This document shows positions 8,087 to 51,159 of a stretch of DNA of 64,000 bases, piece by piece. The position numbers were made by a program, and so were the translations under genes. Position 1 is the first letter of the stretch, and the number at the start of each line of letters is the position of its first letter. Source of the DNA: Flavobacterium sp. WC2421 (lineage in GTDB: Bacteria; Bacteroidota; Bacteroidia; Flavobacteriales; Flavobacteriaceae); contig NZ_CP162004.1 of NCBI RefSeq assembly GCF_040822115.1, forward strand, positions 1,612,001 to 1,676,000, read 5' to 3'. Below the pieces are notes generated by a model. The model was not told where the DNA came from. It made no database searches and saw nothing but the letters and a program-made list of their open reading frames with translations.

Positions 8087-8094
8087 GGAAGGAT

Positions 8095-8325
8095 TAACTG
8101 GTTAATCGTTTAATCGGTTAGGAAAAAGGTTAAGCGGTTAGTAAAGGTTTAATCGTTTAGGAAAAGTTTAATTGGTTAGGAAAAGTTTAAATATTTACAT
8201 TCGATTAACCAAATAACCAGTTCACCAAATAAACAAATAATCAGTTCACCAATTAAACTTTTGTTCGATTCAGCAATTAACCATTAGTTCGATTAAACAA
8301 ATAACCAATTAAACAAATAACCGAT
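8095..8325. repeat. Inverted word array upstream of four-helix-bundle gene 1
   Basis: The first half is built of words such as ggttaatcg and gtttaatcggttaggaaa. The second half is built of their complements (cgattaacc, aataaccag, caattaaac). Matched arms include GGTTAATCG at 8100-8108 and CGATTAACC at 8202-8210, around a centre near taaatattta (8188-8197). The strand could fold into a long imperfect hairpin. A 33-bp segment at 8202-8234 recurs exactly at 8802-8834 on the other side of the gene. Confidence 0.85.
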
Positions 8326-8718
8326 TTGAGCTACCACATCTATTCTTTCGAAAAATTAGAAGTATATCAAATGGCTAGAAAGTTCAAAATTGATATAAAG
8401 TTGATGAGTCAAGGGTTTCCAAAAGAAGAAAGATTTGATTTAATCAGTCAAATTAATAGGTCATCAGCGAGTATCTCTGCTAATTTAGCAGAGGGTTCTG
8501 GAAGATCTTCTAATTTTGACCAGGCCCATTTTACTAATATGTCCTATTCAACGGGGTTAGAAACAATAGATCATTTGAACACCGCCTTGGATATGAAGTA
8601 TATTAATGAAGAAAAATATACAGAACTTAGAATAAAACTGGATGCTATTTTAAATAAATTAAATTCACTTTATAAATATCAAATCAATAATAAAGAGACG
8701 TTGAAGAAGAAAGTTTAA
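8326..8718 (+). CDS. Four-helix-bundle protein, S23/Avd-like (copy 1)
   Basis: A 130-residue, mostly helical protein related to the 23S rRNA intervening-sequence protein family, which also includes the accessory protein Avd of diversity-generating retroelements. Family landmarks are FEKLEVYQMARKF at the start and then RFDLISQINRSSASISANLAEGSGR in two adjoining stretches. The TTG at 8326 is chosen as start because the conserved F-E-K-L-E-V helix begins right after it; the next Met is inside that helix. It is the most divergent of three copies in the window. No reverse transcriptase or rRNA gene is nearby. It splits fcl from gmd and is enclosed by inverted word arrays. Function unknown. Confidence 0.85.
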   Translation: MSYHIYSFEKLEVYQMARKFKIDIKLMSQGFPKEERFDLISQINRSSASISANLAEGSGRSSNFDQAHFTNMSYSTGLETIDHLNTALDMKYINEEKYTELRIKLDAILNKLNSLYKYQINNKETLKKKV

Positions 8719-8999
8719 AAAGTTTAATTGTTTAAAAAGGTTAATCGGTTAGGAAAAGTTTAATCGGTTAGGAAAGGTTTAAATATTTCCACACGATTAA
8801 ACGATTAACCAAATAACCAGTTCACCAAATAAACGATTAACCAATTAACCAATTAAACAATTAACCAATTAAACAATTAACCAAATAAACGATTCACCAT
8901 CGTATAACAAAATTTCAATCACAACACACGATTAAACAATTAACCAAATAAACGATTCACCATCGTATAAAAAATACACGAACAACAAGCAATAAAATC
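8719..8999. repeat. Inverted word array downstream of four-helix-bundle gene 1
   Basis: Same vocabulary as the upstream array: ggttaatcggttaggaaa words to about 8785, then cgattaacc and aattaaac words to about 8970. Arms GGTTAATCG (8739-8747) and CGATTAACC (8802-8810) pair. The segment 8802-8834 is an exact 33-bp copy of 8202-8234. Confidence 0.85.
8868..8970. repeat. Exact 40-bp direct repeat pair
   Basis: The 40 bases at 8868-8907 occur again without change at 8931-8970, 63 bp apart, inside the word array before gmd. The exact match suggests recent duplication or gene conversion compared with the degenerate words around it. Confidence 0.9.
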
Positions 9000-10088
9000 A
9001 TGGATAGTACACCACAAAAAGTAGCATTAGTTACAGGAATCACGGGTCAAGATGGATCTTATTTAGCAGAATTATTATTGGAAAAAGGATATATGGTTCA
9101 TGGTGTGAAACGCCGCGCGTCTTCTTTTAATACCCAGCGTATTGATCATATCTATCAAGATCAACATGAAGCCCATGTTAATTTTAAATTGCATTATGGA
9201 GATTTGACGGACTCAACTAATATTATACGAATCATACAGGAAGTACAACCCGATGAAATCTATAACTTAGGAGCGATGTCTCATGTAAAGGTATCTTTTG
9301 ATTCACCTGAATATGTTGCCAATGTAGATGGATTGGGAACCTTGAGGATTTTGGAGGCAGTTCGAATTTTAGGTTTAGGAAAAAAAACGAGAGTGTACCA
9401 AGCTTCTACTTCTGAATTGTATGGCGGATTGGCAGAGAATAAAAACGCAGCAGGATTTTATGACGAAAGCTCTCCTTTCTATCCGCGTTCGCCTTATGGA
9501 GCGGCTAAGATTTATGGTTTTTGGATTACTAAAAACTACCGTGAAGCCTATAATATGTTTGCTTGTAATGGGATTCTGTTCAATCATGAATCGCCAAGAC
9601 GTGGGGAAACTTTTGTAACCCGTAAAATCACCATGGCTGTCGCTGCGATTGCCAAAGGAAAGCAAGATTGTTTGTACTTAGGAAACTTGAATTCGCAAAG
9701 AGACTGGGGACATGCCAAAGATTATGTAGAAGCGATGTGGCGTATTTTACAACAAGACGTGCCTGAAGATTATGTAATTGCCACCGGTGTGACTACGTAT
9801 ATTAGGGATTTCGTGATTATGGCTTTTGCTGAGGTAGGTGTTACCCTAACTTTTGAAGGAGAACAAGAAAATGAAACGGCTACTGTCGCTTCTTGTGCTA
9901 ATCCTTTGTATCAAATAGCGATAGGTACCGTTGTGCTTAGAGTAGATCCAGAGTATTACCGCCCGACTGAAGTGGATTTATTAATAGGCGATCCTACGAA
10001 GTCAAAAACACAATTGGGATGGAAACCACAGTACGATTTAGCCGCTATGGTGAAAGAAATGGTAGCGAGTGATTTGAAATTGTATTAG
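9000..10088 (+). CDS. gmd: GDP-mannose 4,6-dehydratase
   Basis: A 362-residue enzyme forming GDP-4-keto-6-deoxymannose, the substrate of Fcl. The N-terminal motif [19 protein letters not shown] is diagnostic. [21 protein letters not shown], the YxxxK pair (YGAAK, Tyr166/Lys170) and [17 protein letters not shown] follow. Near residues 280-310 there is an extra segment ([16 protein letters not shown]) before the conserved [17 protein letters not shown]. It is at the usual position for extended Gmd proteins and looks intact. With ManC and Fcl it completes GDP-L-fucose synthesis from mannose-1-phosphate. Confidence 0.97.
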
Positions 10089-10178
10089 TGTGAAAGTAGT
10101 ATTTAAAGGACGGTGGTTATACTACTTTGAATTATTTTGAGTAGTATACATGAAGTTTTTTATAGAAATTAAATTACT

Positions 10179-10252
10179 AGAAGTCTCATGATGAGATGTG
10201 AAAAAGATTAAATCTACTTCTTTTTTTGATAGTGATTGAAGATGTAGATTTA
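10179..10252 (+). terminator. Possible terminator after gmd
   Basis: Two overlapping stems can form: AGAAGT (10179-10184) with ACTTCT (10216-10221) followed by seven T residues, or AAATCTAC (10210-10217) with GTAGATTT (10244-10251). The mutually exclusive arrangement resembles an attenuator, but this is weak evidence. It could partly isolate the sugar-nucleotide genes from the flippase gene. Confidence 0.4.
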
Positions 10253-10279
10253 TTTATAAGTTTTAAATATATATAATAA

Positions 10280-11644
10280 TTGAAGAATATAGTCCGAAAA
10301 ATTTACAATAAAGTTGGGATTAAAAGTGACCGTACTAAGAACATAACTAAGCATGTTCTGGTGTCCTTCATCTATAAAGGAGGAAGTATAATAACCTCTT
10401 TTTTAATGATTCCCTTAACTATTAATTACCTCGATACTGAAAATTATGGTATTTGGTTAACGTTAAGTTCATTTATTGCTTGGTTTTCTTTTTTTGATAT
10501 TGGTTTAGGAAATGGATTAAGAAATAAGTTTGCTGAGGCTAAGGCTAAAGGGGATTTAACACTCGCACAGGCCTACGTGAGTTCAGCATATTTTACAATT
10601 GGAAGTGTTAGTTTACTGATTATATTAATTTTCTTTGGACTTAATTTTTTTATAGACTGGACTCGTGTATTTAATACAAATGTTATAATACAAAAAGAAC
10701 TAGGATTGCTTATGCCTATTGTTTTTTCTTTTTTTTGTTTGCAATTAGTAGTAAAATTAATAACGACAATATATACGGCAGATCAACACCATTCGATGCA
10801 GGGAAAAATTAATTTTCTTACATCTGTGATATCTATATTGGCAATTTGGTTGATGACTAAAACAACAGAAAGTTCTTTGTTAATCTTTGGGGCTATCTTT
10901 TCGGCCTTACCAGTATTAATATTAGTTGTGTTGAATTTATTCGCTTTTTCAAATACATATAAAGAATATAGGCCTGTCTTTTCTTTATGGAAGAAAGAAT
11001 ATTTAAAAGATATTTTTGGTTTAGGAATAAGTTTTTTTTTTATTCAGATGGCCTGGGTAATAATAACCACTACTGATAACATGATTATTTCACAGTTATT
11101 TTCACCAAAAGAAGTAGTTCCCTATAATTTAGCATTTAAGCTATTCAGTATATCATCAATGATTTTTACGATTATTGTTGCTCCTTATTGGTCAACTTTT
11201 ACTGAAGCTTATTTCAAGCAGGATTACGATTGGATAAAAATGTCTATGAAAAATTTGAGGAGATTTGTAATTATTTTTTGTTTTTTCTCTTTTTTTCTTC
11301 TTGGGTTTTCTAATTTTATTTATCGAATTTGGTTGGGGGAAAAAGTTGAAATTTCATTTAATTTAAGCTTCTTTATGTGTGTGTATACATGCTTAATAAT
11401 ATATTTGACACCGTTAAATTATTTTATTAATGGTGTAGGTAAAATTAAAATACAATTGTATCAAACTATTCTAATGGGAGTTCTAAACATTCCAGTTTCA
11501 ATATTTTTTGCTACATATTTGGGTTTAGGTACTGTAGGAGTAATAATTGGAACTATTTTATGTGTAATTCCGGGTGTTTTTCTCTCTACAATACAATTTA
11601 ATAAAATTATAAATCAAAGAGCTTTTGGTCTTTGGAATAAATAA
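10280..11644 (+). CDS. Wzx-type polysaccharide flippase (cluster 1)
   Basis: An integral membrane protein of 454 residues with about 12 hydrophobic segments, of the MATE/MOP flippase superfamily. It would move undecaprenyl-linked repeat units across the inner membrane. Landmarks are YGIWLTLSSFIAWFSFFDIG near residue 55, DNMIISQLFSPKEV in the middle and NYFINGVGKIKIQLY in the last third. It starts with TTG at 10280. It is a clear paralogue of the flippase at 27143 (both share YGIWLTLSS, FFDIGL and INGVGK). The Wzy-like gene follows after a decayed acyltransferase. Confidence 0.9.
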   Translation: MKNIVRKIYNKVGIKSDRTKNITKHVLVSFIYKGGSIITSFLMIPLTINYLDTENYGIWLTLSSFIAWFSFFDIGLGNGLRNKFAEAKAKGDLTLAQAYVSSAYFTIGSVSLLIILIFFGLNFFIDWTRVFNTNVIIQKELGLLMPIVFSFFCLQLVVKLITTIYTADQHHSMQGKINFLTSVISILAIWLMTKTTESSLLIFGAIFSALPVLILVVLNLFAFSNTYKEYRPVFSLWKKEYLKDIFGLGISFFFIQMAWVIITTTDNMIISQLFSPKEVVPYNLAFKLFSISSMIFTIIVAPYWSTFTEAYFKQDYDWIKMSMKNLRRFVIIFCFFSFFLLGFSNFIYRIWLGEKVEISFNLSFFMCVYTCLIIYLTPLNYFINGVGKIKIQLYQTILMGVLNIPVSIFFATYLGLGTVGVIIGTILCVIPGVFLSTIQFNKIINQRAFGLWNK

Positions 11645-11649
11645 CTGAA

Positions 11650-11960
11650 ATGCAATTTTTGTTTGTCTTATTAACTAAAGTTTTACGACGATTCAAGTAT
11701 TATTTATTAAAACCTATCGATTGGTTTTTTTGTTATTATTTATTGTATTCTAATGGTGTTGTTTTTTGCAACTTTAAAAGCCATAGAGAATCTAATTTTT
11801 TTTTAGCTTAGGGGGGATGTTTCATTGAGCCAAATTTAAAATCAATAATCGAGAATCGTCTAATTCGATAGATTCAAAATCAATTTTAAAGTAAAGATTG
11901 GGAAATTTACTTCGATTCTGTCAAATCTAAATGCAGGTATTAATGAATTATAGATTATAT
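11650..11960 (+). pseudogene. Decayed hexapeptide acyltransferase remnant
   Basis: After the flippase stop, an ATG at 11650 opens 54 codons (MQFLFVLLTKVLRRFKYY..., later YSNGVVFCNFKSH) and stops at a TAG near 11812. In the same frame sequence continues as GGCFIEPNLKS, and KVKIGKF and NLNAGIN appear further on in another frame. This pattern resembles the N-terminal half of WbbJ-like left-handed beta-helix acyltransferases such as those at 13240 and 28659. The similarity is judged by eye and modest. The rest of the gap to 12079 shows nothing else recognisable. Confidence 0.38.
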
Positions 11961-12079
11961 TTTATGTTCAGGCTTTGATATGTTAATTAGTCTATTCTTT
12001 TTAATTATAAATCAATAAGTTATATCATATATGCATAATAATTCAAAACTTAAAATTTTTAAAATTATCACACAATTTA

Positions 12080-13243
12080 ATGGTTAAAATAATTCAAAAT
12101 ATTTTATTGATTCTAGTGTTTTTAACACCGCTATTTGGTGTAGTGGAAGGATTTGGTGCAATTGATTTTGCAGTTCCTTTTACTTTAGTTTTTATTAAGT
12201 CACTAAAATTATTTATTATATTTGTAGTTGTATTTTTGACGGTATGCAGGTTGCTTTTTACAGATTTTTTTCATCTGAAATCAGTTTTACTTTTATTTTT
12301 ATTGTTTATATTTACTTTAATGGTTTTTTTATTGTCTTCAAATATTTACATAGCTTTAGCTGGTTTAACTTGGAGTTTACCTTTTTTTTTGATTTTTCTT
12401 CTTGTTGGAGTTATTGATGTTAATTTTTTGTATAAGCTTACTAAAGTATTGGTTTTTGTTTTAATATCAAATACATTACTTCAACTAGCACAAATGTTTT
12501 ATATGCCAGCTTATCGTGGTTTTAATTTTTTTGGTTTATCAGGGAGGCTAGCCGGTTTTTTTTCAAGTGCTAGTTCAGCTGGTATTTTAAGTTCTTTTGT
12601 TTTTTTTTCAATAAAATATTTTTCGAATTTCAATTTGAGATGGAAAAACATATTTTTAGCAGTTTCAGTTTTAAGTGTATTCTTGTCGATGTCGTCAACA
12701 GGAGTTGGATTACTTGTTATTATTATTTTGTACCCTTTTTATTTAAAAAGTAAAAATAAAATTATTGGAATTTTATTTTTTGTTCCACTTATTTTTACAG
12801 CTATTTCGAATTTAGATGTTCTTACTGGTAGGGATTCTGGAAGTTCCGAAAGTTCTTTTACAACAAGATTATCTATTCTTTTTCAGCAAATTGAAAATTC
12901 AGAAATTATTTCTACTAATTTTGGTAAAGCTACAAATATGGGGGTAAGTATAGAACGTAACTTAAATATTTATGTTGATGGTGTTTTTATTACTGATATG
13001 ATGTATACTTCATTATTAGTTAATTATGGGTGGCTTATCACTTTGATTTTGTTAGGCTTATTATTGATTACATTAATTCATATTAAAAGATTAAATTCGA
13101 CTTCCCTTAACTTGTTTATAGTAATGTGCTTATTAGGTTCCTCTGCTTTAATTATTACAGAGATTTTCCCTATCAATATGCTTATAGCAATTTATTCAGC
13201 ATATTATATTTTTAATGTGCGTAGTAAATATTATCAACAATGA
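12080..13243 (+). CDS. Wzy-like O-antigen/capsule polymerase (cluster 1)
   Basis: A very hydrophobic 387-residue protein with about 10-12 membrane segments and a larger polar loop around residues 255-315 ([20 protein letters not shown]... to FGKATNMG). This is the architecture of Wzy polymerases and O-antigen ligases, with the large periplasmic loop in the second half. Sequence conservation in this class is low, so the call rests on topology and position after a flippase and before acyl- and glycosyltransferases. Its stop overlaps the next start (ATGA at 13240). Confidence 0.75.
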
Positions 13244-13842
13244 ATTTTAAAAAAATTATAAGAATTCCATTTTATATTTATCGTTTTTCTAGAGATATTA
13301 TATTTTGTACCATAAAGTTAGGTTGTTGGGAATCATCATGGAGGTTTCATGGTCTACCTATAATTCAAAAACATAGAAATTCTATTATAAAAATCGGATC
13401 TAATTTTGTAGGTTGTAGTAATCCTAAAAATAATACGATTGGAGTATTTCAAAAGGTAATAATTAAAACATGTGCACCATATGCCAGTATTAAAATAGGA
13501 AGTCATGTGGGTGTTTCAGGTGCAACTATTTCTAGTATTTCATCAATTACAATTGGTGATAATGTTTTAATAGGGAGTGGTGTATTAATAACGGATAATG
13601 ACGCACATTCAATAAGTCCTGAATTTAGAAATGATAAGAATAAGATATTATCAAAGCCTATTATTATTGAGAATGATGTTTTTATAGGAGCTAGATCTAT
13701 TATTTTAAAAGGAGTTACAATAGGAAGAGGAGCATTAATTGGTGCTGGTTCCGTGGTGTCTAAGAACGTTGATGCTTTTGCGATAGTTGGGGGTAATCCT
13801 GCAAAAAAAATAGGTGATGTTAGAGATGAAAAGTACCAATAA
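13240..13842 (+). CDS. Hexapeptide-repeat acyltransferase (WbbJ-like)
   Basis: A 200-residue left-handed beta-helix acyltransferase likely to O- or N-acetylate a sugar of the repeat unit. Hexapeptide turns run from about residue 75 ([35 protein letters not shown]). The catalytic His region is DNDAHSI, followed by [27 protein letters not shown] and the family ending [10 protein letters not shown]. Translation is probably coupled to wzy by the 4-bp overlap. The acceptor is unknown. Confidence 0.88.
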
Positions 13843-13857
13843 TAATTTATTTATTCT

Positions 13858-14688
13858 ATGAATCAAATTGCAGTTTTACTAACCTGTTTCAATAGAAAGG
13901 AAAAAACATTAAATTGTTTACACCATCTTTTTAAATTAAAAAATGATTTAGATATTTATTTGGTTGATGATGGTTCTACAGATGGGACTAGTGAGGCAAT
14001 TGCGAAAGACTTTCCACAAGTAAATTTGATTAAAGAATCAGGTGATTTATTCTGGAATAAAGGAATGAATTTAGCTTGGGAACATGCATCCCAAATTGAC
14101 TATGATTATTATTTGTGGTTAAATGATGATGTTGTTATTTATCAAAATTGTTTTGATGAACTTTATTCATGTATAGATTTGACTGAAAGTAAAGCCATCA
14201 TTTCAGGAATTATTGAATCGGCAGATAAAAATGAGACACTTTACGGAGGGTTTGATGCAAATAGGAAGTTAATAAAAGCAAATGGAAAATTAAATTCTAT
14301 CAGGAATTTAAATGGTAATGTAGTAGTCATACCTAAGAAAGTGTATAAAGTTCTAGGGAATCTGGATTTGCATTATCATCACGATTTGGGAGATGTTGAT
14401 TATGGATTGCGAGCACAAAGAAATAATATAAAGGTATATACTACTAGAATCGCTATTGCCAGTGGGGATAAAAATGATATCTGTCGCGTGAGAAAAAATA
14501 AGACAACTATTATAAATAGATTTAAAAAATTGTATTCTCCCTTAGGAGCGAATCCTAAGATTATATTCTATTTTAGAAATAAACATTTTGGATTTATAAA
14601 TGCTATAACTTATTTCTTTTTTTTACACTTCATAAACTTTATTCCTGATTGGTTAAATAATTTAGTTTTTGGTAATCGTTATGTTTAG
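13858..14688 (+). CDS. Glycosyltransferase family 2
   Basis: A 276-residue GT-A enzyme. The N-terminus reads QIAVLLTCFNRKEKTLNCL, with LVDDGSTDGTSEAI at about residue 40 and the metal-binding motif LWLNDDVV near residue 95. HHDLGDVDYGLRA follows at about residue 180. The LNDD motif and the DxDYGLRA ending place it among rhamnosyl/hexosyl GT2 enzymes, but donor and acceptor are not predictable. It is part of the cluster 1 run of transferases. Confidence 0.87.
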   Translation: MNQIAVLLTCFNRKEKTLNCLHHLFKLKNDLDIYLVDDGSTDGTSEAIAKDFPQVNLIKESGDLFWNKGMNLAWEHASQIDYDYYLWLNDDVVIYQNCFDELYSCIDLTESKAIISGIIESADKNETLYGGFDANRKLIKANGKLNSIRNLNGNVVVIPKKVYKVLGNLDLHYHHDLGDVDYGLRAQRNNIKVYTTRIAIASGDKNDICRVRKNKTTIINRFKKLYSPLGANPKIIFYFRNKHFGFINAITYFFFLHFINFIPDWLNNLVFGNRYV

Positions 14689-14711
14689 TTTTAATAAAAT
14701 CAATTAATAGA

Positions 14712-16427: not shown

Positions 16428-16428
16428 A

Positions 16429-18156: not shown

Positions 18157-18204
18157 TATTTCATTATTATATGCTAGTACCAATTTATAATTTTTGAACC
18201 GTAT

Positions 18205-19623
18205 ATGTCCATCTTAAAAACCCTAGCCTCTTTACGTATTTCCCGTTACTTTAAAATTTGTTTTGTTTTATGGGATTTGTTATTATTGAATGTAGCTATT
18301 ACTTTTTCTTTTTGGTTGCGGTATGGTTCACTAGTTCGGATTGATCTAAAAGAGGTGCAAACCATTTCGCTTTTATCCAATTTGTTTTGGGTCTTTATAC
18401 TATTGAATAGAGACGCCTACAGAATTATACGTGTGGAACGAATTGAGACGATACTAATTAGAATGTTTAAACATCTCCTTATTCATACTGCTTTGATTGC
18501 TATTTTTGTAACCGTTTTAAAATTTCATGAAATTTCTCGGGTACGCTTGTTTTATTTTTATGTTGTTTTTTTTACTATGCTTTTTATTTCAAGAGTTTCC
18601 TTTATGAAAATATTGAAATACATTCGGTCGAAAGGGTATAATTTTAAGAATGTCATAATCATTGGTGCTAATGATGCAGGTGAAAATATAAACAGGATAT
18701 TATCTAAGGACTTAACGTTTGGCTATCGAATACTAGGTTTCTTCGATAAAATAGTAGATCCTTTTGCCTTTATATCGGGGCCCATTTTGGGCGATTTTGA
18801 TGCAATTGAAGAATATATTATTCGAGAAAATGTTGATGAGATGTATGTAGCGTTACATATCGACAATATTGATATCATCAATACATTAACAGCACTTTGT
18901 GAGCGCTACATGGTCCGAATTAAATTCATACCTGATTTTCAACAATACACTCGGTCGCGTAAGGTAGAAATTACTTTCTACGAGAACACACCAGTGCTAA
19001 TGTTGCGGAAAGAACCTTTGGAAGGTACCATTAATCTGTTGTTAAAAAAAGTTTTTGATTTAATTTTTTCTTTTTTGGTTATTGTATTAATCTTTCCATG
19101 GCTATTTCCGATCATCATTGTTTTGATGAAAATGGATTCCCCTGGTCCCATCTTTTTTAAGCAAGAGCGTTCCGGACGTGAAAATGAATCTTTTCTTTGT
19201 TGGAAATTTAGAACGATGAAGGTAAATGCTAGTTCAGATTACCAACAAGCGACCAAGAACGATGCAAGAATAACCAAAATAGGGGCATTCATGCGCAAAA
19301 CCAATATTGATGAACTGCCTCAGTTTTTCAATGTTTTTTTTGGTAATATGTCTGTGGTAGGCCCCCGTCCACACATGTTGCGACATACCGAAAAGTATTC
19401 TGAATTAATCAATAATTATTTGGTGCGTCATTATGCCAAACCCGGAATTACGGGTTGGGCTCAAGTTAATGGGTATAGAGGAGAAACGAAAGAGTTGATC
19501 GAAATGAAAGACCGAGTGGATTATGACATTTGGTATATAGAGAACTGGAGTTTGCTATTAGACCTGAAAATTATTTACCTGACTATTTATAATGTGTTTA
19601 AAGGAGAGGAGAAGGCTTATTAG
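18205..19623 (+). CDS. wcaJ: WcaJ-like undecaprenyl-phosphate glucose phosphotransferase
   Basis: A 472-residue initiating polyprenyl-phosphate hexose-1-phosphate transferase. It has four N-terminal membrane segments, then a Rossmann-like domain (IIGANDAGENI near residue 151). A reentrant hydrophobic helix (FDLIFSFLVIVLIFPW) leads into the catalytic domain with FFKQERSGRENESF, WKFRTMK, NIDELPQFFNV, MSVVGPRPHM and KPGITGWAQVNGYRGE. It would load the first sugar, probably glucose-1-phosphate, on undecaprenyl phosphate. It is the last gene of cluster 1. Two other initiating transferases exist in the window (42502 and 43469). Confidence 0.92.
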   Translation: MSILKTLASLRISRYFKICFVLWDLLLLNVAITFSFWLRYGSLVRIDLKEVQTISLLSNLFWVFILLNRDAYRIIRVERIETILIRMFKHLLIHTALIAIFVTVLKFHEISRVRLFYFYVVFFTMLFISRVSFMKILKYIRSKGYNFKNVIIIGANDAGENINRILSKDLTFGYRILGFFDKIVDPFAFISGPILGDFDAIEEYIIRENVDEMYVALHIDNIDIINTLTALCERYMVRIKFIPDFQQYTRSRKVEITFYENTPVLMLRKEPLEGTINLLLKKVFDLIFSFLVIVLIFPWLFPIIIVLMKMDSPGPIFFKQERSGRENESFLCWKFRTMKVNASSDYQQATKNDARITKIGAFMRKTNIDELPQFFNVFFGNMSVVGPRPHMLRHTEKYSELINNYLVRHYAKPGITGWAQVNGYRGETKELIEMKDRVDYDIWYIENWSLLLDLKIIYLTIYNVFKGEEKAY

Positions 19624-19830
19624 TATTTAGTGAGCAGTTTTTAGTGATTAGTGTTCAGTGTTCAGTTTTTTAGTGATCAGTAGTTAGTGATCAGTGGTCA
19701 GTGTTCAGTAATCAGTGTTCAGTATTCAGTGATCAGTATTCAGTGATCAGTATTCAGTGATCAGTAAGCTGTGATCAGGGATTATGGTGAAGAGTGAAGG
19801 GTGTTCAGTAGCTTGAGAGCGGAGCGTGGT
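19624..19830. repeat. Degenerate 14-bp word array without ORF (array 1)
   Basis: Words made of cagtgttcag, cagtgatcag and cagtattcag fill about 200 bp. Three tandem 14-bp units based on CAGTGATCAGTATT run at 19727-19768. The central TGATCA is palindromic. The same 14-bp vocabulary recurs at 48122-48290. Between 19830 and 19990 nothing else is recognisable. Confidence 0.88.
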
Positions 19831-40091: not shown

Positions 40092-41138
40092 ATGAAAAAT
40101 ATATTAATTACAGGTGGAGCGGGATTTATTGGATCCCACGTAGTACGTCTTTTTGTGAAAAAATACCCGCAATACCAAATATTCAATTTGGATGCCTTGA
40201 CTTATGCCGGAAATTTGGAGAATATAGTTGATATTGAAAAGGAGCCCAATTATACGTTTATAAAAGGAGATATTGTAGACGCACCATTTATTGATGCTTT
40301 ATTTGCGGAACATCAATTTGATGGAGTTTTGCATTTGGCTGCCGAATCACATGTAGATCGTTCTATTACCGATCCGTTATCCTTTGTGAAAACAAATGTT
40401 ATAGGAACAATGAATTTGTTAAATGCTGCCAAAACGATTTGGAATGGTAACTATGTAGGAAAACGTTTTTACCACATTAGTACTGATGAGGTTTATGGTA
40501 GTTTAGGTTCCGAAGGGTTGTTTACGGAAACTACTGCTTATGATCCTAACTCTCCTTATTCAGCTTCTAAAGCCAGTTCGGATCATTTTGTTCGTGCTTA
40601 TGGAGAAACCTATGGTTTGCCCTATGTGTTGACCAATTGTTCGAATAATTATGGGCCTTTTCATTTTCCAGAAAAATTGATTCCTTTGTTTATCAATAAT
40701 ATTATTCAAAACAAGCCTTTGCCGGTCTATGGCGATGGGAAATACACTCGTGATTGGTTGTTTGTAGAAGATCATGCGGTTGCAATTGATTTGGTTTTTC
40801 ATGAAGGTGTAAATCATGATACGTATAATATAGGTGGATTTAATGAATGGCAAAATATCGATTTGGTGAAATTGCTCTGCAAAATTATGGACGAGAAATT
40901 AGGAAGAATTGCTGGAACATCAGAGCAATCGATTTCCTATGTAAAAGACCGTCCGGGTCATGATTTGCGTTACGCGATTGATGCCAGTAAAATCAATAAA
41001 GAGTTAGGATGGAAACCTTCAGTAACTTTTGAGCAAGGGTTGGAAAGAACTGTAAATTGGTATTTAGAAAACCAGACTTGGTTGAATAATATTACTTCGG
41101 GAGAATATGCAACTTATTATGAAAACCAGTACAAGTAA
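40092..41138 (+). CDS. rmlB: dTDP-glucose 4,6-dehydratase
   Basis: A 348-residue SDR enzyme that makes dTDP-4-keto-6-deoxyglucose. GGAGFIGSHVVRLF, AAESHVDRSI, STDEVYG with the catalytic Asp-Glu, and the YxxxK pair YSASK are present. CSNNYGPFHFPEKLIPL and GDGKYTRDWLFVEDH follow. The order rmlC-D-B-A is kept, but a four-helix-bundle gene separates rmlB from rmlA. Confidence 0.97.
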   Translation: MKNILITGGAGFIGSHVVRLFVKKYPQYQIFNLDALTYAGNLENIVDIEKEPNYTFIKGDIVDAPFIDALFAEHQFDGVLHLAAESHVDRSITDPLSFVKTNVIGTMNLLNAAKTIWNGNYVGKRFYHISTDEVYGSLGSEGLFTETTAYDPNSPYSASKASSDHFVRAYGETYGLPYVLTNCSNNYGPFHFPEKLIPLFINNIIQNKPLPVYGDGKYTRDWLFVEDHAVAIDLVFHEGVNHDTYNIGGFNEWQNIDLVKLLCKIMDEKLGRIAGTSEQSISYVKDRPGHDLRYAIDASKINKELGWKPSVTFEQGLERTVNWYLENQTWLNNITSGEYATYYENQYK

Positions 41139-41191
41139 TTCGTTAATCGTGATCCGTAATTCGAAGCTCCAAATAGACAGTATTAGTGCAA
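41139..41191. repeat. Word-repeat flank upstream of four-helix-bundle gene 2
   Basis: A 50-bp spacer built of gtaattcg, ttaatcgtgatc and cgtaattcgaagc words. CGTAATTCG (41155-41163) is the reverse complement of CGAATTACG at 41554-41562 on the other side of the gene. Short but same logic as the larger flanks at 8095 and 50491. Confidence 0.65.
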
Positions 41192-41542
41192 ATGAAAGAT
41201 CATAAAGACTTAGATGTATGGAAACAGTCGATGGTGCTTGCAGAAGATATTTATGCGTTAACAAAAAATTTCCCAGCAGATGAAAAATACGGATTGTCAA
41301 GCCAAATTAAGAGAGCAGTAGTTTCTATTCCCAGTACTATTGCTGAAGGTGCTGGTAGAAAAGGAGACAAAGAATTTATACAGTTCTTATATATCGCTAT
41401 GGGTTCATTATCTGAACTAGAAACGCAATTAATTTTAGCCAATCGATTACAGTTTATAAATTCGATTGAAATTTATCTAAGTCAAATTGAAAAGATTAAA
41501 AAAATGCTTTTTGGTCTTATCAGATATGTAAATAATAAATAA
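41192..41542 (+). CDS. Four-helix-bundle protein, S23/Avd-like (copy 2)
   Basis: A 116-residue helical protein of the 23S rRNA intervening-sequence/Avd-like family. Landmarks are [39 protein letters not shown] and [21 protein letters not shown]. The ATG at 41192 matches copy 3 exactly in its start ([10 protein letters not shown] versus DHKDLDVWK); a GTG at 41186 is possible. It is much closer to copy 3 (50673) than to copy 1. It sits between rmlB and rmlA with short inverted word flanks. No rRNA or reverse transcriptase nearby; function unknown. Confidence 0.9.
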
Positions 41543-41591
41543 GAATGTAATTCGAATTACGCTTTTCGAATCACTAATAACAAAAAAAAAT
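41543..41591. repeat. Word-repeat flank downstream of four-helix-bundle gene 2
   Basis: Contains the perfect 14-nt palindrome GTAATTCGAATTAC (41547-41560) and then gcttttcgaatcac. The latter mirrors gtgatccgtaattcgaagc upstream of the gene. The two flanks would pair across the ORF or fold separately. Confidence 0.65.
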
Positions 41592-42461: not shown

Positions 42462-42501
42462 GGAATCCCTGTTTAGGTTTTGATTACCTATATTTTAAAA
42501 T

Positions 42502-43455: not shown

Positions 43456-43468
43456 AAACTTTATTCGA

Positions 43469-44035: not shown

Positions 44036-44078
44036 GAGGAATTACTATAGTTTTTGTGTGAATCTTATTAATCATAAA

Positions 44079-45218: not shown

Positions 45219-45324
45219 GTTAGTAAAATGAAAGGTTGAATTATTTATTATAATTCACTTTTGGTCATTTATATATACGTAATTATAATGAATTGTATCA
45301 TTTTTTTTTCGATTCATTATGTCT

Positions 45325-45332
45325 TATTTTTG
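45325..45332 (+). promoter_or_regulatory. Candidate -7 element before the WbpM-like gene
   Basis: TATTTTTG matches TAnnTTTG and lies 42 bp before the proposed TTG start at 45374. It lies inside an in-frame 5' extension from a TTG at 45293, so it argues for the later start. No properly spaced TTG at -33 is seen. Confidence 0.35.
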
Positions 45333-45373
45333 ATATATTATATAGCATTAGTCTAAAAAAAAATATTTTTATT

Positions 45374-47344
45374 TTGAGTAATAATACAAAATCAGGTTCA
45401 ACATCATTTATATCTCATTTTTTCTCTCGAGAAAATCTGCGATTTAATATTCATAATTTAAGTTATTTGCCAAGGTGGATCATTGTAATGATGGATTTTG
45501 TAGTTCTTATGATCTCTTTTTTCTTTACCTATTTGATTTTTAGAGGAACAGGATTAGATTACATCATAACGCCTCATAGTGTTGTTTTTATATCATCTTT
45601 ATTTGGGGTTAATATTTTCTTTTTTTGGTTGTTTAGAACCTATTCGGGAATAATTAGGCATTCTTCTTATATTGATGCTGTAAAATTGCTGTTTTCACAA
45701 ATGGCCGTGCTGATCGTGTTTCTTGTTTTGAATTTTGCTTTTGAGGTACTATTTGGACAAAAAGCTTTTTTAAATACGGCGCTCTTTATCAATATGGTAC
45801 TTTCTTTTTGTGGACTATTTTTATATCGTGTTATTGTAAAACAAACTTTTGAGCGTTATTTTTCGGAGACTAGTGATGTTAACTTATCAAGAACTATTAT
45901 TTACGGTACAGATGCTAATGCGATATCAGTAGCCAAAGCATTAAAATTAGAAACGCCAGCCCGTTTTAAAATAGTCGGATTTGTAGATAAGAATAATCAG
46001 AATTCATCCAAAAGAATGCTGGATTTGCCTATTTTCATTCAAAAGAAAAAGTTGCCTATTTTAATGCGTTCCATTGGCGCCGAAGGAGTAGTAATAGCAG
46101 ATAAAAGCTTGTCAAAAGAAGAGCGATTGGTAATTGTAGATCAGTGCCTGGAATTTAATTATAGGGTATATATGGTACCATTAATTACCGATTGGGAGAA
46201 TCAAAAAGAAATTTCTCAAAAAGTAAAGAATTTACAAATTGAAGATTTATTGGAAAGAAAACCTATTGTCTTAGATAGTAAATCCATATCCAAGCAACTC
46301 AAAGATAAGACCATATTAATTACTGGAGCAGCAGGATCCATTGGTAGTGAAATTGTTAGGCAAGTATTACTCTTTAATCCAAGAACAGTACTCGTTTTAG
46401 ATCAAGCAGAAACACCTTTACATCATTTGTTTCTAGAGATGAATGAAAATGTATTTAAGTCTAAAATAATTACCATAGTAGCTGACGTTAGAAATAAAGA
46501 ATCTATGAACAATGTTTTTAAGCAGTATGGACCTCAAGTCGTCTTTCATGCTGCAGCTTATAAACATGTTCCATTGATGGAAGAAAATCCATCTCAAGCT
46601 ATTCTCACTAATATAGTTGGTACAAAAATCTTGGCCGATTTATCTTGTGAATATCAAGTCAAAAAATTCGTTATGGTGTCTACTGATAAAGCAGTAAACC
46701 CAAGTAATGTAATGGGAGCTAGTAAAAGAATTGCTGAAAAATACGTGCAATCCCTTCAGTTAAAAAGTCAAAAAGAAAAGACAGTAAAGGCTACTAAATT
46801 TATCACTACTCGTTTTGGAAATGTTTTAGGTTCGAATGGGTCAGTAGTTCCTTTGTTTACTAAGCAAATTGCGAGTGGTGGTCCTGTAACGATAACGCAT
46901 CCTGATATTATTCGATATTTTATGACTATTCCTGAGGCATGTCAACTTGTACTTGAAGCGGGGGCTATGGGGAATGGAGGGGAAATTTATATTTTTGATA
47001 TGGGGAAACCCGTCAAGATTATTGATTTGGCAAAAAAAATGATCAAGTTGGCAGGTTTTATTCCTGACAAAGACATCATGATAAAAGTAGTAGGGCTACG
47101 ACCTGGAGAAAAATTATATGAGGAATTATTAAACGATACTTCAAAAACGATTCCTACTTACCATAATAAAATTATGATTGCAGAAGAGATTCAAGATGAA
47201 TATGAAACGTTGCATACTGATATTGAAGAACTAATTCAAATTGCCAATTTTTTTGACAATGAGGCGATGGTTTCAAAAATGAAAGAAATTGTACCCGAGT
47301 TTAAGAGCATGAATTCTAGTTATGAAGTCTTAGATGTGCATTAG
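45374..47344 (+). CDS. WbpM/PglF-like UDP-HexNAc 4,6-dehydratase
   Basis: A membrane-bound dehydratase of about 656 residues. Four N-terminal helices (from RWIIVMMDFVVLMISFFFTYL) are followed by a first Rossmann domain (IIYGTDANAISVAKAL). The catalytic SDR domain begins at about residue 316 with LITGAAGSIGSEIVRQ and has STDKAVNPSNVMGASKR, in which Met replaces the usual catalytic Tyr, as in WbpM. The TTG at 45374 is preferred because RENLRFNIHNLSYLPRW is the usual beginning; a TTG at 45293 is possible. The product feeds both the WbpV-like reductase and the PglE-like aminotransferase. Confidence 0.92.
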   Translation: MSNNTKSGSTSFISHFFSRENLRFNIHNLSYLPRWIIVMMDFVVLMISFFFTYLIFRGTGLDYIITPHSVVFISSLFGVNIFFFWLFRTYSGIIRHSSYIDAVKLLFSQMAVLIVFLVLNFAFEVLFGQKAFLNTALFINMVLSFCGLFLYRVIVKQTFERYFSETSDVNLSRTIIYGTDANAISVAKALKLETPARFKIVGFVDKNNQNSSKRMLDLPIFIQKKKLPILMRSIGAEGVVIADKSLSKEERLVIVDQCLEFNYRVYMVPLITDWENQKEISQKVKNLQIEDLLERKPIVLDSKSISKQLKDKTILITGAAGSIGSEIVRQVLLFNPRTVLVLDQAETPLHHLFLEMNENVFKSKIITIVADVRNKESMNNVFKQYGPQVVFHAAAYKHVPLMEENPSQAILTNIVGTKILADLSCEYQVKKFVMVSTDKAVNPSNVMGASKRIAEKYVQSLQLKSQKEKTVKATKFITTRFGNVLGSNGSVVPLFTKQIASGGPVTITHPDIIRYFMTIPEACQLVLEAGAMGNGGEIYIFDMGKPVKIIDLAKKMIKLAGFIPDKDIMIKVVGLRPGEKLYEELLNDTSKTIPTYHNKIMIAEEIQDEYETLHTDIEELIQIANFFDNEAMVSKMKEIVPEFKSMNSSYEVLDVH

Positions 47345-47361
47345 AACGTGGACAATACTGT

Positions 47362-48102
47362 TTATTGTATTTTAAAAAACTGATTGTTGGCTATTATTTC
47401 TTTTAGCGGAGTGGTATCTTTTATTTTTACTTTAAAGTCAAAAGAAGCAATGTGATTGTTATGATGTACATCAGAACCCACATAGGAATACATTCCTTTT
47501 TGGAGTAATTGATCACTGATTTTAGCGATTTCGTTACCATAATATCCTACTGTCGATAATAAATTGAGCTGAAACAAACAGCCTGCTCTTTTTAGTTTTA
47601 GGTATTCGTTGAAATTATTATGATAAAATAAATAGCGTTCAGGATGTGCTAGTACAGGAATGTATCCCGCCACCTGTAAATCAAAAAGGATCGCGTACAA
47701 TTGGATGGGTGCATTAATGTAGGACATCTCTACTAATACATAATTATCTTTCAATGTCAATAGTTCATGGGATTGAAAAAGACGCACAAACTGGTCGTCC
47801 ATTAAATATTCTGCTGCCGCTTTAAAAGGCAAATGAATATTATTTTTTTTCAGTTCGGCCACCGTCTCCTTTTTATTTGCAATAATCTGGTCATGGGTAT
47901 TGTCCCAAACATGTTGGATGATATGTGGTGTAGTTATGAACTCTGTAACGCCAAATCCTTGAAGTGCTTTCGTTAATCGTAAGCTGTCCTCAAATGTTCG
48001 AGCCCCGTCATCAATACCAGGTAAAAGATGGGAGTGGATATCGACATGATTGTCCGGAATTAAGTCCTTAAGTGCGGGTTTTGATTTGAAAATTGTAAGC
48101 AT
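47362..48102 (-). CDS. PHP-domain tyrosine-protein phosphatase (CpsB/YwqE type)
   Basis: A 246-residue metal-dependent phosphatase and the only intact minus-strand gene. Metal-binding motifs are HVDIHSHLLPGIDDGA, TPHI, AEYLMDD, AHPERY and GSDVHH. In Gram-positive and some Bacteroidota systems this family dephosphorylates the tyrosine tail of the capsule kinase, so both Wzc proteins here are candidate substrates. It converges on the WbpM-like gene with a 17-bp gap. A near-perfect promoter abuts its start codon, suggesting a leaderless mRNA and expression independent of the biosynthesis operons. Confidence 0.93.
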   Translation of the reverse strand: MLTIFKSKPALKDLIPDNHVDIHSHLLPGIDDGARTFEDSLRLTKALQGFGVTEFITTPHIIQHVWDNTHDQIIANKKETVAELKKNNIHLPFKAAAEYLMDDQFVRLFQSHELLTLKDNYVLVEMSYINAPIQLYAILFDLQVAGYIPVLAHPERYLFYHNNFNEYLKLKRAGCLFQLNLLSTVGYYGNEIAKISDQLLQKGMYSYVGSDVHHNNHIASFDFKVKIKDTTPLKEIIANNQFFKIQ

Positions 48103-48106
48103 TCTG

Positions 48107-48136
48107 CAAATGTAGAAAAAATTAATCAGTGTTCAA
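48107..48136 (-). promoter_or_regulatory. Strong Bacteroidota-type promoter of the phosphatase gene
   Basis: On the minus strand TTG (48136-48134), a 19-nt spacer, then TACATTTG (48114-48107) match TTG-N19-TAnnTTTG. Only four bases (CAGA) separate it from the ATG at 48102. With the usual start a few bases after the -7 element, the transcript would begin at or very near the start codon. The -33 TTG lies at the edge of the word array that begins at 48122. Confidence 0.7.
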
Positions 48137-48290
48137 GGGGGCAGTGATCAGTATTCAGTTTTCAGTTTTCAGTGTTCAGTAAATAGTGATCAGTATTCAG
48201 TGTTCAGTGATCAGTAAACAGTGATTAGTAAACAGTGATCAGTAAACAGTGATCAGTAATTAGTATTCAGTTAGCAGTACACTCTGTTCC
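48122..48290. repeat. Degenerate 14-bp word array without ORF (array 2)
   Basis: Words cagtgttcag, cagtgatcag and cagtattcag as in the array at 19624. Four tandem 14-bp units based on CAGTGATCAGTAAA run at 48205-48260. The array has the same strand polarity as the one at 19624. It lies between the phosphatase promoter and a pseudogene. Confidence 0.88.
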
Positions 48291-48319
48291 TTGCGTAATG
48301 AGTTGTAGCCCAATTGTCA

Positions 48320-49047
48320 TCAGGCTGTGGGATTATAGTGTGCTATTATTGTGGAGGTGTTGTTTTTTCGGTGCAGCATTTTGTGTTTTTTTCGTTCTAT
48401 TTTCGAAAATCCGATGAATAGAAACGTTAGGTGTACATCATTTCCTTTTGGTTTATTAGTTGATATTATTATGTTTTGTTTTACGGATTCTTTATCCAGA
48501 ATCCATTCTTCGCTGTAACAGGTGTCGTGTGTGTCGTTCTCAAAATTCCAATTGGCTGTAGCCATAGTCAAATGTGCATGTGTAGCCTCTTCAGGCCAGT
48601 CTAAATGTTTCTTCGCCTTAAATTTAGACAGCGTAATTGTTTGATTGCTTAGATCCCATTGTTCTTTTGTTTTTAGGACTTTCTGCAGTGGTCTCAGACT
48701 GTTGCTTTCAAAAAGTAATAAAAAATCCTTTCCATTTGTTGTTTTTAATCCTTCCGCCAGCGTTCTTTTTCCCTGTGGTTGGGTCGTGTCTTCTTGTAGA
48801 ATTTCGAACAGTAGTTTGTTTGCCCTACCAGCAAAGCTTCCCTATTTTGCCCGTTCATAGAAACAGGATGCCCGTTGACAAAATACAACTGATTTTTTTG
48901 CACAGCCTCCAAACTCTTGCCCCTGATTTCGTATCCTGTCGAAAATGGGGTTGTTTTTAAATTCTTTGGCTGTTATGCCTGTTTTTCCCTTCGCCCTTGC
49001 ATAGTTATTTCCGTTTACTGTGCTGACAAAATTAATGTGTAGTTTTT
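48320..49047 (-). pseudogene. Frameshifted flavobacterial hypothetical protein gene
   Basis: Reading the minus strand across frames gives a continuous protein. First come STVNGNNYARAKGKTGITAK, then EFKNNPIFDRIRNQGQEFGG. After a frame change in a run of seven identical bases (48893-48899) come NQLYFVNGHPVSMNGQNREA and LLVGQTN. After a second change near 48811-48822 come LLFEILQEDTTQPQGKRTL, DFLLLFESN and HLDWPEEATHAHLTMATANW, ending HYNPTA at a TGA. The first part resembles a flavobacterial family with ARxKGG...RTREN..EFG motifs; that recollection is tentative. The true N-terminus is missing. Only the last part is an open frame by itself. Confidence 0.7.
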
Positions 49048-49552
49048 ATTTACAGATAAAGAAATATAACAGTAGTAAATCTTTTAGATTTTTAAATTTT
49101 CGTTTTGCCCAAGCCCTAAAAGTGAGTCGAAAATTTGGATTTTTCCTTTCGTATAAAACCATTAAAAATAGTCGTTCTCTGAATTGTTAAGGTGTCCGTA
49201 AAATATAATGTAATTGTTGTTTTATGTAATCATTATAACGGGTTTTTAGAGACCAGCTACAGAGATGAAAGATCAGGTTGAAAAAAGGGAAAAATCATTT
49301 CTGATTTATGAAAGTTTTCTTTAATTTGTTAATTATTGCTATTATTTATAAAGGAATAGTATATTCGTAAAAAAACCACTCTTACTGCTAAATGAGCCTT
49401 GACTCATACTGTCAGTTAGAGCCGCGGAGCGCGTCTGGAAGTTTCGTTTTTTGCATTTATTATAATTTTTCACAGTCATTTTGATGCAAATGTTATTCGG
49501 AAATAAATAAGATAAGATGCTGTTTTTAAGGATATACCAATTAGATATTATT
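49048..49552. other. Non-coding stretch before the ABC-transporter cluster
   Basis: No believable gene. A GC-richer patch at about 49398-49445 (ctgtcagttagagccgcggagcg) stands out from the AT-rich surroundings and resembles a degenerate interspersed intergenic motif, like the one near 19811-19830 (gagagcggagcg). Otherwise nothing is recognised. Confidence 0.5.
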
Positions 49553-49560
49553 TATATTTG
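49553..49560 (+). promoter_or_regulatory. Candidate -7 element before wzm
   Basis: TATATTTG, a perfect TAnnTTTG match, lies 60 bp before the wzm ATG after a long non-coding stretch. No TTG at the right spacing. It is a plausible promoter for the whole ABC-transporter cluster. Confidence 0.45.
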
Positions 49561-49620
49561 TTCCATCTCTCGACCGCGTTTGATAAGACAAAACCCAAAA
49601 CTACGATTTAGTATACACTA

Positions 49621-50490
49621 ATGAATCATCCAGAAAATACAAATACCACTTGGCTGTTTGAAATAACACCAAAAAACAAGTTCTTCACGCTCAATCTTAA
49701 GGAAGTATGGCAGTACCGCGATTTGCTGCTGCTTTTTGTAAAAAGAGATGTGGTTACGGTGTACAAGCAAACCGTTTTAGGGCCACTTTGGTATTTAATA
49801 CAACCGTTGTTTACTTCGATTACGTTTACCATTATTTTTAACAATTTGGCGGGGATTGATACGGGTACCGTACCTCCTTTTCTGTTCAATTTAGCAGGTA
49901 TTACGGTTTGGAATTATTTTACCGCTTGTCTTACAGGGACTTCGAACACTTTTGGTGCTAATGCAGGAATTTTTGGGAAAGTGTATTTCCCTCGAATCAT
50001 TGTTCCCATGTCCATTGTAATCTCTAATTTGTTGAAATTTGGAATTCAATTTTTAATATTTATCGCTTTTTATATATACTATTATTTCCAAGGAGCGGCT
50101 ATAAGCTTAAATGGGTTAAGTCTTTTGTTTCCAATATTAATTATAGTAATGGGTATTTTGGGTTTAGGATTAGGTATGTTTATTTCCTCTTTAGTAACTA
50201 AATACAGAGATTTTAGCTACTTAATTGGTTTTGGGGTACAATTACTGATGTATGTATCAGCGGTAGTTTATCCTATGGAATTGGTTGTAGCAAAAATGCC
50301 AGCGTATGCTTGGCTCGTTCAATATAATCCACTGGCTTATATAATTGAAACTACCCGTTATATGTTATTGAATGTAGGACATATTTCCATTTGGGGATTG
50401 GGTTATACGTTTGTGGTAACTGTAGTTGTTTTTTTAGTAGGAGTTTTGATATTTAATAAGACGGAGAAGAGTTTTATTGATACGGTTTAG
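49621..50490 (+). CDS. wzm: ABC-2 type polysaccharide export permease
   Basis: A 289-residue inner-membrane permease with six hydrophobic segments. The N-terminus WQYRDLLLLFVKRDVVTVYKQTVLGPLWYLIQP is the typical Wzm amphipathic start, given here over two adjoining stretches. GLGLGMFISSLVTKYRDF and YPMELV follow. It exports finished lipid-linked glycan together with Wzt. Normally wzt follows directly; here a four-helix-bundle cassette of about 670 bp lies between. Confidence 0.95.
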   Translation: MNHPENTNTTWLFEITPKNKFFTLNLKEVWQYRDLLLLFVKRDVVTVYKQTVLGPLWYLIQPLFTSITFTIIFNNLAGIDTGTVPPFLFNLAGITVWNYFTACLTGTSNTFGANAGIFGKVYFPRIIVPMSIVISNLLKFGIQFLIFIAFYIYYYFQGAAISLNGLSLLFPILIIVMGILGLGLGMFISSLVTKYRDFSYLIGFGVQLLMYVSAVVYPMELVVAKMPAYAWLVQYNPLAYIIETTRYMLLNVGHISIWGLGYTFVVTVVVFLVGVLIFNKTEKSFIDTV

Positions 50491-50672
50491 ATAGTGAGGA
50501 GTGAGGAGTGAGGAGTGAGGAGTGAGAAGTGAGGAGTGAGAAGTGAGGAGTGAGAAGTGAATAGTGAGAAGTGAATAGTGAGGAGTGAATAGTGGAGGAG
50601 TGAAAAGATTTGTTTCTTTTGTCAACCAATCTACTCACAATTCACGATCACCACTCAAAAAAAAATAAAGAT
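50491..50672. repeat. Inverted word array upstream of four-helix-bundle gene 3
   Basis: Tandem words gtgaggagtgag, gtgagaagtgag and gtgaatagtgag run from 50491 to 50606. They are followed by complementary words at 50631-50656 (ctactcacaattcacgatc and so on). The first part begins directly after the wzm stop. The arms pair imperfectly. An apparent minus-strand frame here (50434-50625) only translates the repeat. Confidence 0.88.
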
Positions 50673-51023
50673 ATGGATCATAAAGATTTGGATGTTTGGA
50701 AGAGGAGTATGGATTTGGTAGTTAAAGTCTATCAAATTACAAAGCTGTTTCCTGACACTGAAAAGTATGGTTTAACGAGTCAAATGAGAAGGGCTTCGGT
50801 ATCGATTCCATCAAATATTGCCGAAGGAGCAGCGCGAAAAGGCGATAAGGAGTTCATACAGTTTCTGTATATTTCCATTGGGTCACTTTCAGAGTTAGAA
50901 ACTCAATATTTAATTGCGATTCGATTAGAATTTATTACAAAAGAGGATACTTTTGAATTGCAACTTATGGAGGTTAAGAAACTTTTGATTGGATTTAAGA
51001 ATTATTTAAATAAAAAATTATGA
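50673..51023 (+). CDS. Four-helix-bundle protein, S23/Avd-like (copy 3)
   Basis: A 116-residue helical protein closely similar to copy 2. It has [39 protein letters not shown] and [20 protein letters not shown]. The ATG at 50673 is chosen by comparison with copy 2; a frame from 50610 would translate the repeat flank. It separates wzm and wzt and is bracketed by gtgaggagtgag-type arrays. Function unknown; members of the family are found in 23S rRNA intervening sequences and, as Avd, in diversity-generating retroelements. Confidence 0.9.
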   Translation: MDHKDLDVWKRSMDLVVKVYQITKLFPDTEKYGLTSQMRRASVSIPSNIAEGAARKGDKEFIQFLYISIGSLSELETQYLIAIRLEFITKEDTFELQLMEVKKLLIGFKNYLNKKL

Positions 51024-51159
51024 GAAGTAAGGAGTGAGAAGTGAATAGATTTAAGTGAAAGGTGAATAGTAGGAGTTAGCTATACTAACAACCCATTTTT
51101 ACGATTCACCATTCACTACTTACGATTCACTATTCACGATTCACTTCTCACTAAAAAAA
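51024..51159. repeat. Inverted word array downstream of four-helix-bundle gene 3
   Basis: AGTGAGAAGTGAAT (51033-51046) is the exact reverse complement of ATTCACTTCTCACT (51139-51152). Further matching words lie between, and a small stem GTTAG/CTAAC sits at the centre (51075-51089). The right arm ends 7 bp before the wzt ATG, so a folded transcript would place the wzt start at the foot of the hairpin. Confidence 0.9.

Follow-up and report, generated by a model that had tools for sequence, protein, structure and literature searches.

What are small genes with repetitive flanks doing between pairs of genes that normally adjoin? The question is raised by a 64,000-nucleotide (nt) stretch of the genome of Flavobacterium sp. 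WC2421 (contig NZ_CP162004.1, positions 1,612,001 to 1,676,000; here, the window), in which three genes of the S23 family (PF05635, 23S_rRNA_IVP), predicted four-helix bundles, lie between fcl and gmd (copy 1), rmlB and rmlA (copy 2), and wzm and wzt (copy 3), with short repeated words on both sides. A sequence-only reading of the window had proposed that each gene splits a functional pair and carries a private set of inverted words, that the protein may guide the making of its flanks, and that the whole may be an undescribed mobile element. Here, we compared these cassettes with S23 loci elsewhere in the genome, genus, and phylum, and with genes of a second family, GxxExxY (PF13366), three of which occur in the WC2421 genome in the same build (for example, CGCAAGGTTCGCAAAGG 5' of the gene and its reverse 3'). 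In the sequences compared, the period of the array tracks the gene family, and the letters are free. The reading that we favor, and rate at about an even chance, is that the cassettes are elements of the intervening sequence (IVS) type at operon junctions, with a protein that would engage a spaced ladder of words and arms that would be kept alike at the DNA level.

S23 genes were found in 60 of 61 genomes of the genus (WC2421 included), with up to 16 loci in one genome, and GxxExxY genes in 50 of the 61; across the phylum, in a set that includes a few genomes of the same genus, the counts were 116 and 75 of 148. The loci compared were mostly the best-scoring one per genome plus 37 from single-contig genomes, among the matches listed, and so are not a random sample; gene boundaries came from simple open reading frame (ORF) rules. 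The best autocorrelation lag of the flanks fell at 7 to 8 nt versus 9 to 11 nt in 39 versus 6 of 50 S23 loci of the genus and in 10 versus 30 of 51 GxxExxY loci; the phylum gave 18 versus 0 (24 S23 loci) and 5 versus 18 (26 GxxExxY loci). Counting each genomic site once, which removes site sharing by descent only in part, the families still differ (p = 4.9e-11): among 41 S23 sites, 29 peak at 7 to 8 nt, 1 at 9 to 11, 7 at 14, and 4 elsewhere, and among 51 GxxExxY sites, 7 peak at 7 to 8 nt, 30 at 9 to 11, and 14 elsewhere. The same S23 period appears on plasmids: among the 43 plasmid records that matched S23, we examined 18 (L307 to L324), 16 of them cyanobacterial, and the 13 cyanobacterial loci with enough flank have best lags of 7 (eight loci), 8 (three), and 14 (two). 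Autocorrelation of intergenic DNA in the WC2421 genome is flat, with no period peak. The signal is noisier in the arms of GxxExxY than in those of S23.

The two arms of an element are inverted copies of each other. When the left arm is scored against its own right arm, reverse-complemented, the median is 15.5 at S23 loci versus 8.5 for mismatched pairs (52 of 54 loci), and 20.5 versus 9.0 at GxxExxY loci (49 of 51), two loci of each family having been dropped for insufficient flank. At a threshold of 13, 37 of 52 S23 loci qualify versus 5% of mismatched pairs. Across the phylum, the medians are 12 versus 8 for S23 (28 loci, p = 2e-11) and 13.5 versus 8.5 for GxxExxY (29 loci, p = 1e-12). The arms also share the core of their words (mean cosine 0.83 versus 0.38 when arms are re-paired; 18 genomes, 0 of 10,000 permutations), and they have a polarity, with a G-rich left and a C-rich right arm at 41 of 54 S23 loci in the genus, 27 of 28 in the phylum, and all 16 on cyanobacterial plasmids, and at 37 of 50 and 20 of 29 GxxExxY loci in the genus and phylum; around other genes, 168 of 323 show it. 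Both neighbors run in the direction of the cassette gene at 45 of 52 S23 and 40 of 48 GxxExxY loci versus 249 of 432 gene triplets (p = 1.5e-7). By eye, most of the other loci displayed have forward words 5' of the gene and reverse words 3', and copies 1 and 3 have forward and then reverse words on each side.

Such arms might be maintained because they pair in the operon mRNA, much as the ends of a published IVS form a stem that RNase III cuts (PMC4990558, available text), so that RNase III would trim the insert or the stem would shield it. The order of forward words 5' and reverse words 3' of the gene, the shared direction with neighbors at most loci, and the presence among our loci of one genuine rRNA insert (L321, below) all suit this explanation. 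If pairing in RNA were selected, G-U pairs should be tolerated, yet they are not in excess: arm mismatches comprise 23 G-U versus 50 A-C for S23 (p = 0.002, in the opposite direction) and 37 versus 40 for GxxExxY, which argues against selection for RNA pairing as the source of the arms. Duplex energies favor the sense strand over the antisense strand at just 10 of 34 and 13 of 35 loci, and at the ndpA site (below) the cores would pair and the 3-base spacers would not. Selection for RNA pairing thus draws no support from either the mismatch counts or the duplex energies, and we consider it unlikely that a hairpin accounts for the inverted arms.

The unit of an array is a conserved core followed by about three variable bases. 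At one site in WC2421 and its relatives, the S23 gene has a small ORF on one side and, on the other, a nucleoid-protein-like gene, named from its translation and called ndpA here. There, cores follow one another at exactly 8 nt in both arms of seven orthologues with a CTAAG core and of seven with a CAAAG core, a spacing kept across seven species in each of the two groups (genomes G043 and G047 lack a left boundary). Mismatch is 0.10 in cores versus 0.53 in the intervening triplets; because the pattern itself guided the choice of core columns, this comparison is partly circular. The split between core and triplet stays, but overall constraint on the arms was rejected, as they evolve no more slowly than the adjacent spacer. 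Replication slippage could in principle produce heptamer-like intergenic arrays in which the genes are mere passengers; an origin of this kind has been proposed for heptamer repeats (cited in PMC4692102, available text), and gene-less arrays are common. Slippage would have to yield different periods for two gene families within the same genomes, inverted copies across the gene, a polarity fixed relative to the gene, and the 8-nt spacing held in both ndpA-site groups, and we judge it very unlikely.

The letters behave differently from the period. Words are alike only among close relatives, and those at different sites are no more similar than background for S23 proteins up to about 70% identical. 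Letter-specific recognition by S23 found no support, words being uncorrelated with protein identity at different sites; for GxxExxY, a correlation of word similarity with protein identity across sites (rho 0.30) points to some letter dependence. Confinement of word resemblance to close relatives is what would be expected if two old lineages, S23 and GxxExxY, had each simply inherited a period and the protein had no role in the array, and period-7 S23 arms in both Bacteroidota and Cyanobacteriota fit such descent as well. But the letters have turned over fully while the period was kept, so a constraint on spacing is needed, and the rmlB-rmlA junction has been used by both families; we therefore find descent alone quite unlikely. 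The genes themselves are under purifying selection, given a median dN/dS of 0.13 for S23 (30 of 45 pairs, dS < 2) and values of about 0.02 to 0.07 for GxxExxY (4 pairs).

In relatives, the junctions occur empty, occupied, and filled by arrays without a gene. At wzm-wzt, with 19 readable loci including our own (the wzt start was not recognized in 11 of 30), 7 have a gap of 0 to 7 nt and 3, WC2421 among them, have S23 with GTGA words. At rmlB-rmlA, 20 of 30 loci have another or no gene upstream of rmlA and are uninformative on the pair; two have gaps of 6 and 20 nt, six hold a GxxExxY gene or its remains (three at E values of 1e-8 to 3e-16), an array of CAGTGTT words without a gene fills one, and the WC2421 locus has S23. 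The gmd start was not recognized in 5 of 30 loci (including WC2421 and L158, both with S23), and 16 of the 25 readable ones have another or no gene upstream; fcl stands there in 9, of which one has a 5-nt gap, others have 64 to 136 nt, and further ones have gene-less arrays of 183, 251, and 319 nt. The longest array (L176, another species) has the words of copy 1. In the 251-nt array (L157, another species), forward AGAAGGAAGTT words and downstream CCTAGAACCCAAAA words are not complementary, and two array types adjoin. At sufB-sufC, which is occupied by S23 in WC2421, 7 of 29 loci have a gap of 29 to 35 nt (the sufC start was not recognized in 1 of 30); by eye, both arms flank an apparent S23 gene end in L200, L201, and L205, and L198 keeps a right arm. 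Three other sufB-sufC loci (L185, L199, and L210) carry a pair of small ORFs that, by reading, resembles a toxin-antitoxin module. By eye, what fills the ndpA site in relatives varies: S23 genes of several types, hairpins that lack a gene and have very different words, or decayed S23. These states at the same junctions indicate that junctions are refilled repeatedly by different elements and that the gene is optional. On cyanobacterial plasmids, S23 splits CRISPR-Cas operons, at cas6-cas4 in two records and at cas10-cmr3 in one, and it also lies between nrdB and nrdA, opposite to their direction.

Within the window, PF05635 matches span 8326-8715 (E = 2.7e-28), 41192-41539 (E = 8.4e-39), and 50673-51020 (E = 1.7e-38), and the Pfam domains of the neighbors agree with the gene names; the features are listed in Table 1. 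Tandem Repeats Finder (TRF) reports 8108-8190 (period 19), 8796-8899 (period 8), 50493-50603 (period 7, 15.7 copies), and 51106-51151 (period 14).

Table 1. S23 cassettes and gene-less arrays in the window, in positions of the window
Feature	Position	Strand	Basis and remarks
Copy 1 left array: forward words (ggttaatcg type) 8087-8190, then reverse words (cgattaacc type) 8200-8325	8087..8325	+	TRF and letters; starts directly 3' of the fcl stop codon
S23 (four-helix-bundle) gene, copy 1	8326..8718	+	PF05635, 98.7 bits; TTG start assumed
Copy 1 right array: forward words 8719-8782, reverse words 8790-8965; upstream of gmd	8719..8965	+	TRF and letters
Copy 2 left words, gtaattcg	41135..41163	+	Letters, weak; first word overlaps the rmlB stop codon
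S23 gene, copy 2	41192..41542	+	PF05635, 132.5 bits
Copy 2 right words, gtaattcg/cgaattac; upstream of rmlA	41543..41574	+	Letters, weak
Copy 3 left forward array, period 7, GTGA plus 3 variable bases	50490..50604	+	TRF; per-phase entropy
Copy 3 short reverse words 5' of gene	50630..50656	+	Letters
S23 gene, copy 3	50673..51023	+	PF05635, 131.5 bits; 62% identity with copy 2
Copy 3 right forward words	51024..51085	+	Letters
Copy 3 right reverse words, periods 7 and 14	51101..51151	+	TRF; per-phase entropy; end just 5' of the wzt start codon
Gene-less array, periods 7 and 14, CAGT plus 3 variable bases; no inverted partner nearby	19622..19782	.	TRF; per-phase entropy
Gene-less array, period 7, AGT invariant in 19/19 units; no inverted partner nearby	48142..48279	.	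TRF; per-phase entropy

Much of the sequence-only reading holds for these cassettes. The genes do split pairs that are contiguous, or nearly so, in some relatives at all three junctions, and the close proteins of copies 2 and 3 (Table 1; copy 1 is 28 to 30% identical to either) have flanks whose similarity, 7.5, is at background level. Its idea of one architecture written in different letters extends to S23 and GxxExxY loci across genus and phylum. Inverted arrays around the gene are borne out for copies 1 and 3; support is weak for copy 2, where words are few, TRF reports nothing, and the inverted-flank score (11) falls short of the threshold. The word sets are not private, since words like those of copy 1 recur both in the L176 array and in a gene-less array at genome positions 1023224-1023326. 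The two arrays of copy 1, each having forward and reverse words, repeat each other in direct orientation (score 84.5, versus 21.5 inverted), so recombination between them would leave a single gene-less array, as in L176. The two gene-less arrays of the window use the same heptamer words (direct score 62.5).

The whole genome holds seven PF05635 genes, the remaining ones, besides that at ndpA, being at sufB-sufC, hisA-hisF, and acyl-CoA dehydrogenase-thiolase junctions (names from translations), and 9 of its 10 S23 and GxxExxY genes have an inverted-flank score of at least 13. The flanks of these genes stand out from other regions: in a 464-kb stretch of the genome with 433 ORFs (median score 9.5, 99th percentile 22), six of the eight S23 and GxxExxY genes present rank 1, 4, 6, 7, 8, and 9, and the top nine are completed by a RAYT-like ORF with REP-like repeats, sufC (beside S23), and a gene with a terminator-like copy on each side. 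Copy 1 scores 12.5 in this ranking, with the start used there, and 14 in the ten-gene scoring; copy 2 is outside the best 40. Standalone DUF559 (PF04480) genes of the genus were considered as a candidate third family: the seven loci read have no common period, and both neighbors are codirectional in four. Repeated or inverted flank words (CCCTAAAGGG and CCCCTTTGAAGGGG types) were seen by eye in five of the seven (L135, L136, L141, L142, and L143).

The closest known counterparts of the cassettes are the IVSs of 23S rRNA, as in Coxiella and Leptospira, in which the gene is expendable. The available text of PMC4990558 describes an IVS as an S23 gene within inverted repeats and reports GACAGAT heptamers 5' of the Coxiella gene in two to three copies by strain. 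One of our plasmid records, L321 from Azospirillum lipoferum, has its S23 gene within large-subunit rRNA and is a true 23S rRNA IVS; its left arm reads GACGGAT, GACAGAG, GACGGAG, GACAGAA, and similar words are reversed 3' of the gene. Like these, the window cassettes have an S23 ORF above the PF05635 cut-off in all three copies and inverted ends around it in copies 1 and 3 (weakly in copy 2). Unlike them, the window cassettes and the 54 genus loci lie outside rRNA, at operon junctions and with unrelated words; no genus locus had an rRNA match, the sole Rfam match among the 54 being a Flavo-1 RNA in L218. Because rRNA and operon inserts share the gene, the inverted ends, and the heptamer grammar, we name the window cassettes IVS-type elements rather than 23S rRNA IVSs.

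Intergenic heptamer arrays are also known, among them TAACTGA of Beggiatoaceae and others and GGGANTN of Xanthomonas (PMC4679880, PMC4692102). The array of copy 3 and those at 19622 and 48142 resemble them in having intergenic 7-nt tandem units with fixed and variable positions; the cassettes differ in that the arrays are inverted around a gene and have a period that goes with the gene family, copy 1 having periods 8 and 19. The STRR heptamer repeats of cyanobacteria are a further type of intergenic array. In its available text, PMC4679880 proposes that a repeat-binding protein might itself be a mobile element; the main text of neither that paper nor PMC4692102 mentions S23, which is a candidate for such a protein. 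In the literature, most subscription papers being out of reach, we found no paper tying S23 or GxxExxY to periodic word arrays.

REP/REPIN sequences and their RAYT transposases offer another comparison, a small gene with flanking inverted repeats that also occur alone in the genome. S23 cassettes share both traits, but S23 and GxxExxY elements lack an HUH-type transposase, and their arrays have free letters rather than one family of palindromes. Pfam searches of the three window S23 genes gave only 23S_rRNA_IVP and a weak bAvd match, and no Y1/HUH transposase in the element. A system of the known build is present in WC2421 at 980835-981386, where a RAYT-like transposase ORF (named by reading) has CCTGCAAGG-type inverted repeats on its flanks. 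Avd of diversity-generating retroelements is a structural homologue of S23 (PMC10053308, available text); in the window, only copy 2 matches bAvd, at 26 bits, below the cut-off of 40.

In our favored reading, an IVS-type element is a small gene, S23 or, in sister elements, GxxExxY, between inverted arrays of short words, lodged between codirectional genes and probably read together with the operon mRNA. Its protein would engage a ladder of cores set at regular intervals, responding to spacing more than to letters, with a step of 7 to 8 nt for S23, relatives of which have five chains in each of two crystals (2gsc and 2rld) and are described as a toroidal homopentamer (PMC4990558, available text), and of 9 to 11 nt for GxxExxY. 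The arms would be kept alike by copying or conversion of DNA rather than by selection on RNA pairing, and some gene-less arrays would be remnants left after loss of the gene.

Several observations weigh against this reading. Word similarity across different sites does not follow S23 identity (rho 0.04), and no letter recognition is seen. Arm divergence at the ndpA site (0.22 and 0.14) equals or exceeds that of the adjoining spacer (0.14), although it is below that of synonymous sites. The matched change of core between arms may in part be inheritance of two element lineages. The inverted signal is weaker phylum-wide, where 11 of 28 S23 loci reach 13; of the 51 GxxExxY loci of the genus, 10 have their best lag at 7 to 8 nt and 11 in neither range; and three of the 16 cyanobacterial plasmid S23 genes (L309, L315, and L319) are antiparallel to both neighbors. 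Finally, we infer both ladder binding and arm copying from sequence patterns. A bolder version, which we regard as doubtful, is that S23 and GxxExxY are array makers that step by their own footprint, 7 to 8 nt for the S23 ring and 9 to 11 nt for the nuclease-fold GxxExxY, copying neighboring words on both strands; letters would drift while spacing and inverted symmetry persist, cyanobacterial and other heptamer arrays would be products or relics, and the rRNA IVS would be a special case.

The link between flanks and protein suggested by the sequence-only reading is thus stronger than could be seen from the window, because array period follows gene family, although arrays also exist with no gene in cis. 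A wholly undescribed element is more than can be claimed, as S23 genes within inverted repeats and intergenic heptamer arrays were both known (PMC4990558, PMC4679880, and PMC4692102). What is new is that small genes of two unrelated families lie inside arrays at operon junctions with a period matched to the family, which ties the rRNA insert to heptamer repeats. IVS-type elements need not be ribosomal, given that S23 occurs in nearly every genome of the genus and that none of the loci scanned there is in rRNA. Annotation of suf, his, cas, and polysaccharide-export operons should allow for such inserts, which may split them. Array period provides a measurable handle that links DNA arrays with families of proteins; if our reading is true, two puzzles would find a home: the function of S23/IVP and GxxExxY proteins and the origin of intergenic heptamer arrays.

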